Shown one piece after another: positions 41,013 to 45,899 of a stretch of 48,170 nt of DNA. The stretch is from a virus. Each line of letters begins with the position of its first letter. Positions within the stretch are counted from its first letter, which is position 1. Made by a program: the position numbers and the translations under genes. A model generated the notes under the pieces. That model did not search any database, had not been told where the DNA came from, and worked only from the letters and a program-made list of their open reading frames with translations. The DNA lies in IMG/VR virus record IMGVR_UViG_3300010158_000104, positions 1 to 48,170 of that record. One strand, 5' to 3'.

Positions 41013-43184
41013 TTAAAATTTGAAAAGATCACCACCTAAAGATTTAGTAGCATCGTGAGTACGTCTAGTGTATTCTGCCGTTTCTTTCATGTACCTAATC
41101 ATTTCCATTGTTTGCTTATTTAACGTCTCTAGCTCTGATTGTAAATTATTAAAGTACTTGATAGGAGATATAATTTCTGGTCCTGCTTCACCTGCGGTTA
41201 TATTGGTTGCTTTGGAAACTATAGCACCATCAGCAGCTTTCTTTGAGTCACTTCCTAATCGTTCTCCAGCAGTTTTACCAAGAGATCCTACGACCATAGA
41301 GCCAAGAATACTGCCAATAATAGCGCCAGGTGCTGCACCAATGCCGAAAAACAATGATCCAATAGATGCACCTAAGGCCGTACCCACCGCGCTGCCAGCT
41401 GCTTCGCCCCAGGCTCCACCTTTGGCTTTATTTGCTTCTTCTTTAGATATTGTTCCTTCTTTTTCTTGCTTTTTAATATCGCTAAGATCACTAGCTAGCA
41501 TTAATCCACTGAGTACAGTACCAATCACACTAGGGCTTTTAAGAAATCTTTTTACGGTTCCTCCTGCACCTCCACCGCCCTTAGGAGGTTTATCGCCCTT
41601 ACCTGTTTTATCAAGTAAGTCACCTAATCCGCCACTAGCAGCATCTTTTGCAGCTTCTGCTGTTTTAGCAGCAGTAAAATTGTTAATAGCAAGCACAGCA
41701 GCACCCAATGCAATAACAAATCCCCCAAAGCCAAATGTAATAATGTCAAACCCTTTTACAACTTTGGTAATAATTGTGGCTAGTGCATTAACTACCGGAG
41801 TTAATACTTGTACAATTGGTGCAATTAATTTCATTATTGCTTGGCCAAACTCTTGAATAGCTTGTTGAGATTTTGCCGCATCTTTTGCTTCAGATTCTTT
41901 TCTTTCTGCTGTTTCTTTAGCAGCTTCAGAATATTGTTCTTTAATTGCTTGCTCGCCTGCAATTCTATCTTTTGCAGCCAGTTTAACTGCATCTTCGTTG
42001 CCTTTTAGCACACCACTGTACGAGCCCACTGCTCCAGCGAGTCTGCCTAGATCTCTAGCATTAGATTGTCTGCCTTTAATTTCGTTATCTTGAACTTCTT
42101 GACTCTTTGCACCGTAGGTACGTCTTAGATCTAGATCTCTTTTTATAGAATCGGCTGTTTGTCCGCTAAGTGCAGTTAATTTTTTACCTGCTTCTCCCTG
42201 TACTGCAACACCCATTGCACTGGCTTTGGCAATATCTGCACCGCCTTTTCCATATAATGATGTAGCTCGCTTAACGTTCTGTTCAATTAATTCACGTTCT
42301 TCTTTTGATTTGCTTGCAAGGAACAGTTGGAATTCTGCTTCTTCCATTTCTTCTTTTAATTTCTTTTGCTGCTCTTCTCTGCTCTTGCCTGTAATTTGAG
42401 CCAGCTGATCTAATTCTTCTAGATACAGTGTAGTACCTTTGGTAAGAGCAGCAGTGTCCTGCATCTCTTGTCTATTACGACCACCTGTCAATGAAATGTA
42501 ATTTAACATTCCTTGATTAACTTCTTCAGTAGTGTAGCCCAATGCTCTTAAATTATTACCTGCGTCACTGCTTAACAAAGTGTTGCTGGCCTTAACAAAC
42601 GATTTAGCACCTTGATTAACGGTGCCGCCCATCTTGGCAAACACTTCACCGTTGTTTTTCATCATGCTAGAAAACTGATCTAATGTCATATAAGTGCTGA
42701 GAGCAGCTTGACGCAATTGCGTCAAACTACCACCAAAATTAACACCAGATGTACTTACCTGCTGGTACATCTTCATATTTTCGTCTTGAAAATCAGAAAC
42801 ACGTTTTAGTGCTGTGGCAAATACACCCAGTATTCCGGGCATTGCTTCAAACGCACCAAACACATTTCCTAGAGTAGCAGTACCTTTGGTTAAATTATCA
42901 ACCAACGGAGAAATGCTTCTGTCCAATGTTCGAATCTTATCAGCAGTTTGCCAACCTACTGTGGATAAGTTGCTAAACATTCCCGAAGACTGTTTAGCAT
43001 TGGTATTCATCTGCTCAACTATCTTAGGATCTAGTCCTGATTTAGTTGCCAGCTCTTTAATAGCTTCTTTTTGTGCTTTGGTAGTTGCAAGAGATGCTTG
43101 AAGTATCAGCCGTAGCGTAGCTTCAGTAGCCGCATTATTCAGTACTACTTCTTCGCTGCCTATTGATCCGGTGACTTCTGCCAT
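41013..43184 (-). CDS. Tail tape measure protein
   Basis: A protein of 723 aa. The N-terminal two thirds are helical with heptad-like sequence (EEEQQKKLKEEMEEAEFQLF-type stretches, ESEAKDAAKSQQAIQEFGQA). Hydrophobic segments lie at about residues 440-520 (MKLIAPIVQVLTPVVNALAT, FGFGGFVIALGAAVLAINNF) and about 590-650 (AAGSAVGTALGASIGSLFFG, PGAIIGSILGSMVVGSLGKT). ITAGEAGPEIISPIKYF near the C-terminus is the GExGPE-type motif common in tape measures. T4 uses gp29 here; I see only architectural similarity. It is divergent from the gp26-like gene, whose end carries a frameshift signal of the kind normally found next to tape measure genes. Confidence 0.8.
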   Translation of the reverse strand: MAEVTGSIGSEEVVLNNAATEATLRLILQASLATTKAQKEAIKELATKSGLDPKIVEQMNTNAKQSSGMFSNLSTVGWQTADKIRTLDRSISPLVDNLTKGTATLGNVFGAFEAMPGILGVFATALKRVSDFQDENMKMYQQVSTSGVNFGGSLTQLRQAALSTYMTLDQFSSMMKNNGEVFAKMGGTVNQGAKSFVKASNTLLSSDAGNNLRALGYTTEEVNQGMLNYISLTGGRNRQEMQDTAALTKGTTLYLEELDQLAQITGKSREEQQKKLKEEMEEAEFQLFLASKSKEERELIEQNVKRATSLYGKGGADIAKASAMGVAVQGEAGKKLTALSGQTADSIKRDLDLRRTYGAKSQEVQDNEIKGRQSNARDLGRLAGAVGSYSGVLKGNEDAVKLAAKDRIAGEQAIKEQYSEAAKETAERKESEAKDAAKSQQAIQEFGQAIMKLIAPIVQVLTPVVNALATIITKVVKGFDIITFGFGGFVIALGAAVLAINNFTAAKTAEAAKDAASGGLGDLLDKTGKGDKPPKGGGGAGGTVKRFLKSPSVIGTVLSGLMLASDLSDIKKQEKEGTISKEEANKAKGGAWGEAAGSAVGTALGASIGSLFFGIGAAPGAIIGSILGSMVVGSLGKTAGERLGSDSKKAADGAIVSKATNITAGEAGPEIISPIKYFNNLQSELETLNKQTMEMIRYMKETAEYTRRTHDATKSLGGDLFKF

Positions 43185-43256: not shown

Positions 43257-44129
43257 ATGGTAGCTAACCTAACCAACATACAACCAAACCCGCTTGCTTC
43301 TTTCATGAGGCAACCAAAAATCTACATTCGTTTGCCCAGCAATGGACAATTTTGGCCAGCAGGCAGTTTAGAAATGTCTGAAAATGGAGAACTACCCGTG
43401 TTTTCCATGACTGCCAAAGACGAACTAATGCTTAAAGTTCCAGATGCTGTAATGAGCGGGCAGGCCGTTGTAGATGTTATCCAACATTGTATTCCAAATA
43501 TTAAAAATGCATGGATGGTGCCCAGTATCGATTTAGATGTGTTGTTAATTGCAATTCGATTGGCAACCTATGGTGAAAAGATGACAACTCCTATTACGTT
43601 TGGAGAAGATATTGAAATGGAATACACAACGGATCTACGTACCATAATGGATTCGTTAATGCAAAACATTACCTGGGAAAGTGCTGTACAGGTAAGTCAA
43701 GATCTAACTGTGTATGTTCGTCCTTTGAACTACAAGCAGATCAGTGAAAGTGCTGTAAAAACATTTGAAACTCAAAAGATTTTGCAAATTGCCAACGATG
43801 CTGCAATGAGTGAAGCTGACAAAATTGCTGCATTTAAAGAAAGTTTTAGCAAGCTATCAGATGTTACCATTGGTATAGTTGAGAAAAGCATTTACAAAAT
43901 AGATTCAACTAACGGCGGCACTGAAGATCCAAGGCACATTAAAGAATTTATTGACAATGCCGACAAAGATATTTTTAATATTGTTCAAAATCACATTGAA
44001 CAATTGCGAGAAATAAATTCTTTAAAACCAATTACTGTTCAAGTTACTGACGAAATGAGGGCAAATGGCATCACTGGTGAAACAATTGACGTTCCATTAG
44101 TATTTGATCCTGCAACTTTTTTCGTATAA
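43257..44129 (+). CDS. 26: gp26-like baseplate/tail-assembly protein, probable shifted chaperone (0-frame product)
   Basis: A protein of 290 aa (T4 gp26 is 208 aa). It has FMRQPKIYIRLPSNGQFWPA, then GELPVFSMTAKDELMLKVPD, GQAVVDVIQHCIPNIKNAWM and VPSIDLDVLLIAIRLATYGE with ITFGEDIEMEYTTDLRTIMD, the T4 gp26 baseplate family pattern. Its last codons are ACT TTT TTC GTA TAA: T-TTT-TTC is a -1 slippery heptamer two codons before the stop. A -1 shift there would fuse the first 289 residues to the next ORF (365 aa in all). With the tape measure gene next door, a tail assembly chaperone role is likely; that is inference. Late promoter GATAAATA; Shine-Dalgarno CGGAG. Confidence 0.85.
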   Translation: MVANLTNIQPNPLASFMRQPKIYIRLPSNGQFWPAGSLEMSENGELPVFSMTAKDELMLKVPDAVMSGQAVVDVIQHCIPNIKNAWMVPSIDLDVLLIAIRLATYGEKMTTPITFGEDIEMEYTTDLRTIMDSLMQNITWESAVQVSQDLTVYVRPLNYKQISESAVKTFETQKILQIANDAAMSEADKIAAFKESFSKLSDVTIGIVEKSIYKIDSTNGGTEDPRHIKEFIDNADKDIFNIVQNHIEQLREINSLKPITVQVTDEMRANGITGETIDVPLVFDPATFFV

Positions 44130-44200
44130 GGCTTTTGTATCTTGATACTAATGGTATCAATAAGCTCATAAAAGAATACGAGACTGATACAAAAGCCTTA
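44117..44200 (+). promoter_or_regulatory. Predicted programmed -1 frameshift signal with stem-loop
   Basis: The slippery heptamer TTTTTTC (44117-44123) is read as T-TTT-TTC in the gp26-like frame. A 15-bp perfect stem follows after 3 nt: 44127-44141 pairs with 44186-44200. Its loop contains a further 7-bp hairpin (44142-44148 with 44154-44160) directly stacked on the first stem. Confidence 0.8.
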
Positions 44201-44353
44201 AAAGAAGAACTTTTTAGATTCGCTTGGTATATGAGAGGTGGTCTAAGTTTCTCAGAGGCATTTTTATTATCGCCTGAAGATAGAGAACTGCTTACTAAGA
44301 TTATTGAAGGTAATTTAGAAATGACCAAAGAAACGCAGATGCCGTTCTTTTAA
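44135..44353 (+). CDS. Frameshift-linked C-terminal domain of the gp26-like protein
   Basis: A 72-codon ORF in the -1 frame relative to the gp26-like gene. The first possible start is a TTG at 44135; there is no ATG near its beginning, and only a poorly spaced AAGG precedes it. The frame is open back through the slippery site, where 76 codons would be added to the gp26-like protein. The sequence NKLIKEYETDTKALKEELFR, FAWYMRGGLSFSEAFLLSPE, DRELLTKIIEGNLEMTKETQ is one helical domain with a conserved-looking WYMRGG. It ends at a stop that shares TTAA with the convergent gene. Independent translation from TTG by reinitiation remains possible. Confidence 0.75.
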   Translation: MYLDTNGINKLIKEYETDTKALKEELFRFAWYMRGGLSFSEAFLLSPEDRELLTKIIEGNLEMTKETQMPFF

Positions 44354-45470: not shown

Positions 45471-45899
45471 TTAAATTTTAGATTTTATGTGAGAGCCATG
45501 GACACGGACTTGGATATGTCCGTTATAGTAATCGTCGGATTCTAATACTTTGCGGTCGAATTGTTCGCGGGCCTCAATGTAAGATGTTTCTGCTTTGGAT
45601 TTACAATAGTATAGTATTTCGCGAGAGAAGTTGTCTTTGCCTAGGGTGTTGATATCTGCTGTTAAATTAGGACTGGACCCGTAATATTCCTGCCAGTCGC
45701 TGTCGATTTTGCTTCGAATCTTCTTTTTCTTTTTTGTGCCGTTCTTCAACGTGATCGTCTTGTAGGTCGTTTTAGAGAATTTTGCTAATTTTTTGCCAAT
45801 GTATTGGCGTCCTGAGGTTATATTGGTTATGCAGTAAACATAACCGATACAATCTTCAGGAAGTTCGTTAACTATAGAGCCTTTGTAGGTCCAAGTCAT
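45471..45899 (-). CDS. GIY-YIG-like nuclease domain protein
   Basis: A protein of 142 aa. GYVYCITNITSGRQYIGKK at residues 19-37 is a GIY-YIG core (G-Y-V-Y ... Y-I-G). WQEYYGSSPNLTADINTLGK and FSREILYYCKSKAETSYIEA follow, with a Glu in YIEAREQ as the possible metal ligand. A Lys-rich insert (about residues 50-65) separates the two parts. Such proteins in T4-like phages are nucleases, some of them homing endonucleases. This one is small, with no separate DNA-binding domain visible. Its place next to gp46 and basic DNA-binding proteins suggests DNA repair or processing as an alternative. Confidence 0.78.
   Translation of the reverse strand: MTWTYKGSIVNELPEDCIGYVYCITNITSGRQYIGKKLAKFSKTTYKTITLKNGTKKKKKIRSKIDSDWQEYYGSSPNLTADINTLGKDNFSREILYYCKSKAETSYIEAREQFDRKVLESDDYYNGHIQVRVHGSHIKSKI

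Follow-up and report, generated by a model that had tools for sequence, protein, structure and literature searches.

The window analysed here is a virus record of 48,170 nucleotides (IMGVR_UViG_3300010158_000104, positions 1 to 48,170) from an uncultivated T4-like virus, and it carries a gp26-like gene adjoining a tape measure-like gene, the latter being divergent rather than downstream (Table 1). The gp26-like open reading frame (ORF) ends ACT TTT TTC GTA TAA, with a T-TTT-TTC heptamer three bases ahead of the stop codon. A first-pass annotation of this DNA had described such a T-TTT-TTC heptamer near the end of the gp26-like frame, together with a −1 ORF that is open back through it and adds 76 codons; the heptamer is located at 44117–44123, and the −1 frame runs without a stop from 19 bases upstream of the 0-frame stop through 44350, giving products of 290 residues in the 0 frame and of 289 + 76 = 365 residues after a slip. 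The identification of the adjacent divergent gene as a tape measure gene likewise stands, through its match to PHROG 167. On the minus strand, a 142-aa ORF (45471–45899) has a product whose beginning looks, by eye, similar to GIY-YIG endonucleases.

Table 1 Features of the gp26-like locus (window positions)
Feature	Position	Strand	Evidence
gp26-like gene (0 frame; short form of 290 residues)	43257..44129	+	PF12322, E 5e-7; PHROG 150, E 3e-10
Slippery heptamer T-TTT-TTC	44117..44123	+	Kept in near relatives, jumbo phages and cyanophage-type loci
6-nt spacer, contains 0-frame stop TAA (44127-44129)	44124..44129	+	Alignment A1
Hairpin 5' arm, 12-bp core	44130..44141	+	Covariation in 58 distinct sequences; recoding control
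Hairpin 3' arm, 12-bp core	44186..44197	+	Covariation in 58 distinct sequences; recoding control
-1 frame extension, 76 codons (44123-44350) plus stop (44351-44353)	44123..44353	+	Complete in 79/80 relatives; codon-position entropy
Tape measure-like gene, divergent neighbour	41013..43184	-	PHROG 167, E 7e-12; PHROG 794, E 6e-11; both tape measure

The gp26-like protein matches PF12322 (T4_baseplate) with 30 bits, the curated cut-off being 24.5, and PHROG 150 is a baseplate hub family; matches to chaperone families are weak (PF16459, E 0.04, below cut-off; PHROG 1749, E 0.0016). Compared with predicted viral structures, its good-quality model (pLDDT 83.7, pTM 0.77) finds its best hit, at E 2e-20, in a T4-like baseplate hub assembly protein. 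A PDB search with this model returned nothing at E 0.001 or better, and the HK97 tail assembly chaperone 2ob9 (Z 5.5, r.m.s.d. 4.5, 101/107 residues), at rank 47, is a suggestive match that falls within the noise of the method. Among the predicted viral proteins matched by the model of 43257–44126 are some of ~500 residues from other jumbo phages (for instance RSF1 and RP12 of Ralstonia and phiEaH2 of Erwinia); these may share the gp26-like fold. The extension is predicted to be helical (pLDDT 84, pTM 0.54); taken alone, the window's extension scores above cut-off with none of the Pfam families and matches no PHROG, and a fold search with the extension only gave nine weak matches, none of them at E 0.001 or better.

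Near relatives were taken from a scan of viral contigs, of which the best 80 of 174 were analysed; over the gp26-like protein, L001 and L002 do not differ from the window, the 81 heptamer-to-stop regions reduce to 61 distinct ones, and statistics were computed on distinct sequences. T-TTT-TTC lies three bases before the 0-frame stop, followed by an open −1 frame, in 80/80 of these best relatives, and the −1 frame closes 221–224 bases past the start of the 0-frame stop in 79/80, the remaining one (L078) being cut by the contig end. Among 64 distinct genes including the window, the codon before the two Phe codons is ACT in 58, AAT in two, GTT in two, GCT in one and AGT in one, with the final T invariant, and the Phe pair is always TTT TTC, whereas of the 669 Phe codons further upstream 114 are TTC. 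By itself the heptamer is common in the window, with six TTTTTTC words on the plus strand and one on the minus strand; its conservation in place and phase exceeds chance. The conserved element has the form of a frameshift site, an X-XXY-YYZ word read in the 0 frame ahead of the stop.

Variation in the extension follows the pattern of an evolving protein: across 54 distinct near-relative sequences, mean base entropy is 0.79, 0.46 and 1.26 at the first, second and third codon positions, and the extension has no in-frame stops, the other two frames having means of 7.4 and 7.6. As the first-pass annotation had stated, no ATG marks the start of the small ORF; the window's −1 frame has neither ATG nor GTG, and the earliest codon that could serve as a start is a TTG at 44135–44137, which sits within the 5′ arm of the hairpin described below. 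Of 58 distinct near relatives, 49 share this TTG and seven have an ATG as the second extension codon, where it overlaps the 0-frame stop; in eight, the first 25 codons contain no ATG, GTG or TTG, and a candidate start with at least four Shine–Dalgarno bases occurs in one. Because no start is conserved, an independent start of the small ORF is judged unlikely in the window's clade; it is possible for the members with an overlapping ATG. The −1 frame is coding and has no conserved start, the absence of a start being clear only for the window's clade.

A covarying hairpin follows the heptamer; it was beyond the reach of the first-pass annotation. The 104 bases from the heptamer onward fold at z = −6.5 in the window, and in 58 distinct sequences the 90 bases past the heptamer have a mean z of −4.7, versus −0.25 for a control stretch in the same genes. 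After a 6-nt spacer, 44130–44141 pairs with 44186–44197; in the window, two additional A–U pairs from 44128 extend the pairing to 44199. In the 58 distinct sequences of alignment A1, 93.7% of cells in the 14-pair stem are paired, and at seven of the 14 pairs both partners have changed. In 500 shuffles, the observed percentage paired, number of two-sided pairs, two-sided cells and covariation score were never matched; four of 500 reached the observed number of further pair types, and shifting the partner by 1–3 columns left 27–52% paired. Relatedness alone can outdo shuffles, as the tool itself warns, and recoding was therefore needed as a second control: both arms, which are also coding, were rewritten for identical amino acids at the codon usage of the clade in 500 runs. 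The 12-pair core is 96.4% paired, versus a mean of 63.9% and a maximum of 68.7% in these same-protein recodings. Synonymous permutation of 3′-arm codons within columns, a weaker control with little room to vary, gave a mean of 96.0% versus the observed 96.4%, with one of 1,000 permutations as high. The amino acids of the arms co-vary as pairing demands (for example, Tyr with Asp-Thr, Asn with Asp-Ser and Thr with Glu-Ser). That the hairpin is a by-product of coding is ruled out by the same-amino-acid recoding of both arms. The hairpin is demonstrably under selection in the window's clade, where its 6-nt spacer falls within the 5–9 nt at which a stimulatory RNA structure would be sought.

From a phages collection, 61 jumbo-type records were matched and 16 picked for spread: Phosso, MIJ3, PA5oct, XaC1, BF, Vibrio 2.275, RaK2, CBB, Atu_ph07, GAP32, 121Q, SCTP-2, Munch, CM1, XbC2 and XacN1, of which MIJ3 and PA5oct are close relatives. 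The heptamer is present in 16/16, as T-TTT-TTC in 14 and as T-TTT-TTT in CM1 and XacN1, and in each the −1 frame is open for 176–227 bases past the stop. The extension is annotated as a separate gene, hypothetical or predicted, in 12 of the 15 annotated records and has no annotated gene in MIJ3, PA5oct and RaK2; a join of the extension to the gp26-like gene is annotated in 0/15. A stop-overlapping ATG (TAATG or ATGA) stands in the −1 frame of five of the 16 (121Q, BF, XbC2, Phosso and Atu_ph07), and reinitiation could add a product in those five. Fold z-scores, given as the best of four lengths and hence biased toward structure, are −3.5 or lower in 4/16 (Atu_ph07, −8.2; XacN1, −4.8; CBB, −3.8; Phosso, −3.5), and a stem at the window's position is found in Atu_ph07 and Phosso and not in the others. 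A comparison of near-relative and jumbo extension profiles was excluded from the evidence because the window row is present in both alignments.

Cyanophage-type loci were collected by a scan with S-RIM8 gp26 (best 80 of 598; L107–L186). T-TTT-TTC is present in 80/80 of this best set, and in 79/80 over 90 bases of the −1 frame are free of stops, L128 being cut by its contig (a contig end falls inside the extension in L078, L128 and L146). Three RaK2-like loci also agree; L187 is a RaK2 sequence. In 71 of 75 distinct cyanophage-type sequences, an ATG lies among extension codons 1–25 or immediately ahead of them, and reinitiation is possible in loci with such ATGs. The cyanophage-type sequences have a mean z of −1.2, and in 74 of them RNAalifold detected no shared structure; the hairpin is not general across heptamer-bearing phages. 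In L107–L186, GAGGG or GAAGG is kept ~10–14 bases upstream of the heptamer. At least four Shine–Dalgarno bases lie within 22 nt upstream of the heptamer in 77/77 cyanophage-type genes, versus ~17% of control stretches. Glu-Gly is conserved at this stretch and either Glu codon yields a Shine–Dalgarno match; GAG is used at the key codon in 46 of 77 genes, versus 536 of 1,765 Glu codons elsewhere. The stretch could be a Shine–Dalgarno-like stimulator or merely conserved Glu-Gly codons.

Four further isolates were compared. S-RIM8 and Bakedbeans fit the pattern of heptamer and −1 frame. Synechococcus phage S-SCSM1 (L101, 3185–3374) keeps the heptamer, but its extension occupies the other frame, where in-frame ATGs are present; bases inserted past the stop, or an error in sequencing, may account for the change of frame. 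Pseudomonas phage Cygsa01 (L100, 2801–2985) has one PF12322 copy and no heptamer, and its extension starts at a TAATG overlap, possibly a switch from frameshifting to stop–start coupling. The small ORF is named baseplate hub assembly catalyst in the S-RIM8, Cygsa01 and S-SCSM1 records, a name given to gp51 in other T4-like records. The first-pass annotation had proposed aligning homologues to see whether heptamer and −1 phase are conserved and whether the downstream ORF always lacks a start. The former holds throughout the three samples (80/80 near relatives, 16/16 jumbo phages, 80/80 cyanophage-type loci), with Cygsa01 and S-SCSM1 as exceptions among the further isolates; the latter holds in the window's clade, which has no conserved start, and is less clear in the cyanophage-type sequences with their frequent ATGs.

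T4 gp26 and gp51 each match the whole length of PF12322 and are therefore paralogues, gp51 having ~48 residues more. In profile comparisons, the cyanophage extension aligns to gp51 columns 207–246 (P 2.6e-8, probability 95%) and the jumbo and window extension to columns 221–255 (P 2.4e-4, probability 43%). PHROG 634 matches both the S-RIM8 extension (E 9e-30) and gp51 residues 147–246 (E 1e-23), with no match to the Atu_ph07 or window extensions. By these profile matches, the long form carries a gp51-type tail, as a member of the T4 gp26/gp51 family would. PF12322 copies were counted in 34 records, some of them fragments and MIJ3 not among them: two copies were found in six (T4, RB43, FL15, phiAS4, P4-3 and PhT2), one in 25, and none was detected in three, where the gene was found by BLAST. 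The window record has one match. An in-frame T-TTT-TTN heptamer is present in none of the six gene 26 sequences of the two-copy phages. Other X-XXY-YYZ words do occur in them: RB43 gene 26 has TTTAAAG 16 bases before the stop, where the −1 frame is shut 11 bases on. In T4, FL15, phiAS4 and PhT2, the −1 frame of gene 26 continues into the following gene, which overlaps gene 26 (in T4, it is gene 25). Among the examined records, signal and second gene copy are mutually exclusive, and single-copy records carry the signal, Cygsa01 and S-SCSM1 apart. The two PF12322 genes of RB43 (L102, 1501–2794) are in tandem on one strand; the T4 pair is divergent.

In phages lambda (G/GT) and P2 (E/E′), a single gene close to that for the tape measure protein yields a short product and, by a −1 slip near its own 3′ end, a long one, the slippery run of P2 being six T followed by G. 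The window's locus is like these in its closeness to the tape measure gene and in the position of the putative slip near the 3′ end; it differs in that the tape measure gene is divergent, in that a covarying stem lies downstream and in that the likeness comes without a known sequence match. With T4 gp26 and gp51, it shares the PF12322 domain and an extension that the gp51 tail resembles; unlike the window's clade, which has one detected copy and the frameshift signal, T4 has two genes and its gene 26 lacks T-TTT-TTN. A comparative argument of the same kind appears, in the excerpted text of PMC12846349, for the tail assembly chaperone of Vandenendeviridae (phage Adele), where a poly-T motif ends the short frame and the −1 frame is open for more than 200 bases. 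That is a different phage family, with the motif GTTTTT, and the excerpt mentions no covarying hairpin. In their excerpted text, the PRFect paper (PMC10885494) and PMC12846349 both credit Vladimirov et al. 2022 with T4-like chaperone genes and poly-T signals. Going by these excerpts, the idea of frameshifting in T4-like chaperone genes is already in print, and the covarying hairpin is the added part; within a literature search limited to open papers, no description of the hairpin or the clade was found in titles and the openings of abstracts.

The conserved heptamer, its phase and the pattern of starts support the programmed −1 frameshift that the first-pass annotation had read here. We infer slippage, at some rate, and a chaperone role for its products: very probably, a −1 frameshift yields the short and long tail assembly chaperone forms of a T4-like phage. 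The majority of ribosomes would terminate after the gp26-like frame, giving the short form of 290 residues. The hairpin six bases downstream would stall ribosomes at T-TTT-TTC, and a fraction of them would slip back by one base and read the 76 codons into the long form of 365 residues. By analogy with lambda G and GT, both forms would jointly hold the tape measure protein and recruit tail tube subunits. T4-type phages would produce the same pair via paralogous genes, 26 for the short form and 51 for the long form, in which the extension is fused in frame.

If the small ORF were instead a separate gene, it would be translated by reinitiation after the gp26-like stop, from the TTG at 44135 or from the overlapping ATGs of relatives. 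The frequency of that TTG (49/58) and of the stop-overlapping ATG (7/58) in near relatives, the TAATG or ATGA overlaps in 5/16 jumbo phages, the annotation as a separate gene in 12/15 jumbo records and the TAATG overlap of Cygsa01, which has no heptamer, all speak for such a start. Yet neither the type nor the position of a start is conserved, 8/58 near relatives have none up to codon 25, just 1/58 has one with at least four Shine–Dalgarno bases, the TTG lies in a stem arm, and reinitiation would leave both the invariant heptamer and the spacing of the hairpin unexplained; we consider it quite unlikely. Slippage of RNA polymerase on the six-T run, reaching the −1 frame via an altered mRNA, would account for the site being a run of T, which in CM1 and XacN1 is seven long. 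Polymerase slippage generally requires longer runs, and an RNA stem 6 nt downstream is typical of ribosomal frameshifting; here, the T run ends in C except in CM1 and XacN1 and a downstream stem is present at this spacing in the window's clade; transcriptional slippage is highly improbable. Chance occurrence of the heptamer, sequencing error or gene decay could be entertained given seven TTTTTTC words on the two strands of the window, but the same place and phase recur across independent contigs and isolates, and the extension has the pattern of coding sequence. A chance heptamer is contradicted by the in-phase conservation, and the probability left for any of these three is next to nil.

A further alternative accepts the frameshift and questions the role: the product would be a structural component of the baseplate hub and not a chaperone of the tape measure protein. 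The Pfam and PHROG family names indeed read baseplate hub, and a T4 review cites genetic support for gp26 as part of the hub; hub membership of gp26 would not fit a pure chaperone. Against this, the same review classes gp26 and gp51 as hub assembly chaperones, with gp51, an essential protein of unknown function, not in the final particle. The gene also adjoins the tape measure gene, as a chaperone gene would, if divergently, and the citing papers, in their excerpted text, handle the short and long T4-like forms as tail assembly chaperones. A purely structural hub protein is, on this balance, unlikely.

As to how the frameshifting and two-gene arrangements are related, it is about as likely as not that one frameshifting gene is ancestral among T4-like chaperones, with a heptamer that outlasted deep divergence while its stimulators changed by lineage (the hairpin in the window's clade; perhaps the Shine–Dalgarno-like stretch in cyanophages). 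T4-type phages would then have swapped the frameshift for the duplication into genes 26 and 51, and rare lineages for a stop–start overlap.

The locus provides a clear comparative case of −1 frameshifting in T4-like phages, with a hairpin that is under demonstrable selection. In jumbo phages and cyanophages, small ORFs now listed as genes of their own, hypothetical or for a 'hub assembly catalyst', would encode the latter part of a single protein. The finding also bears on why T4 uses two related hub chaperones, a question that now becomes testable.
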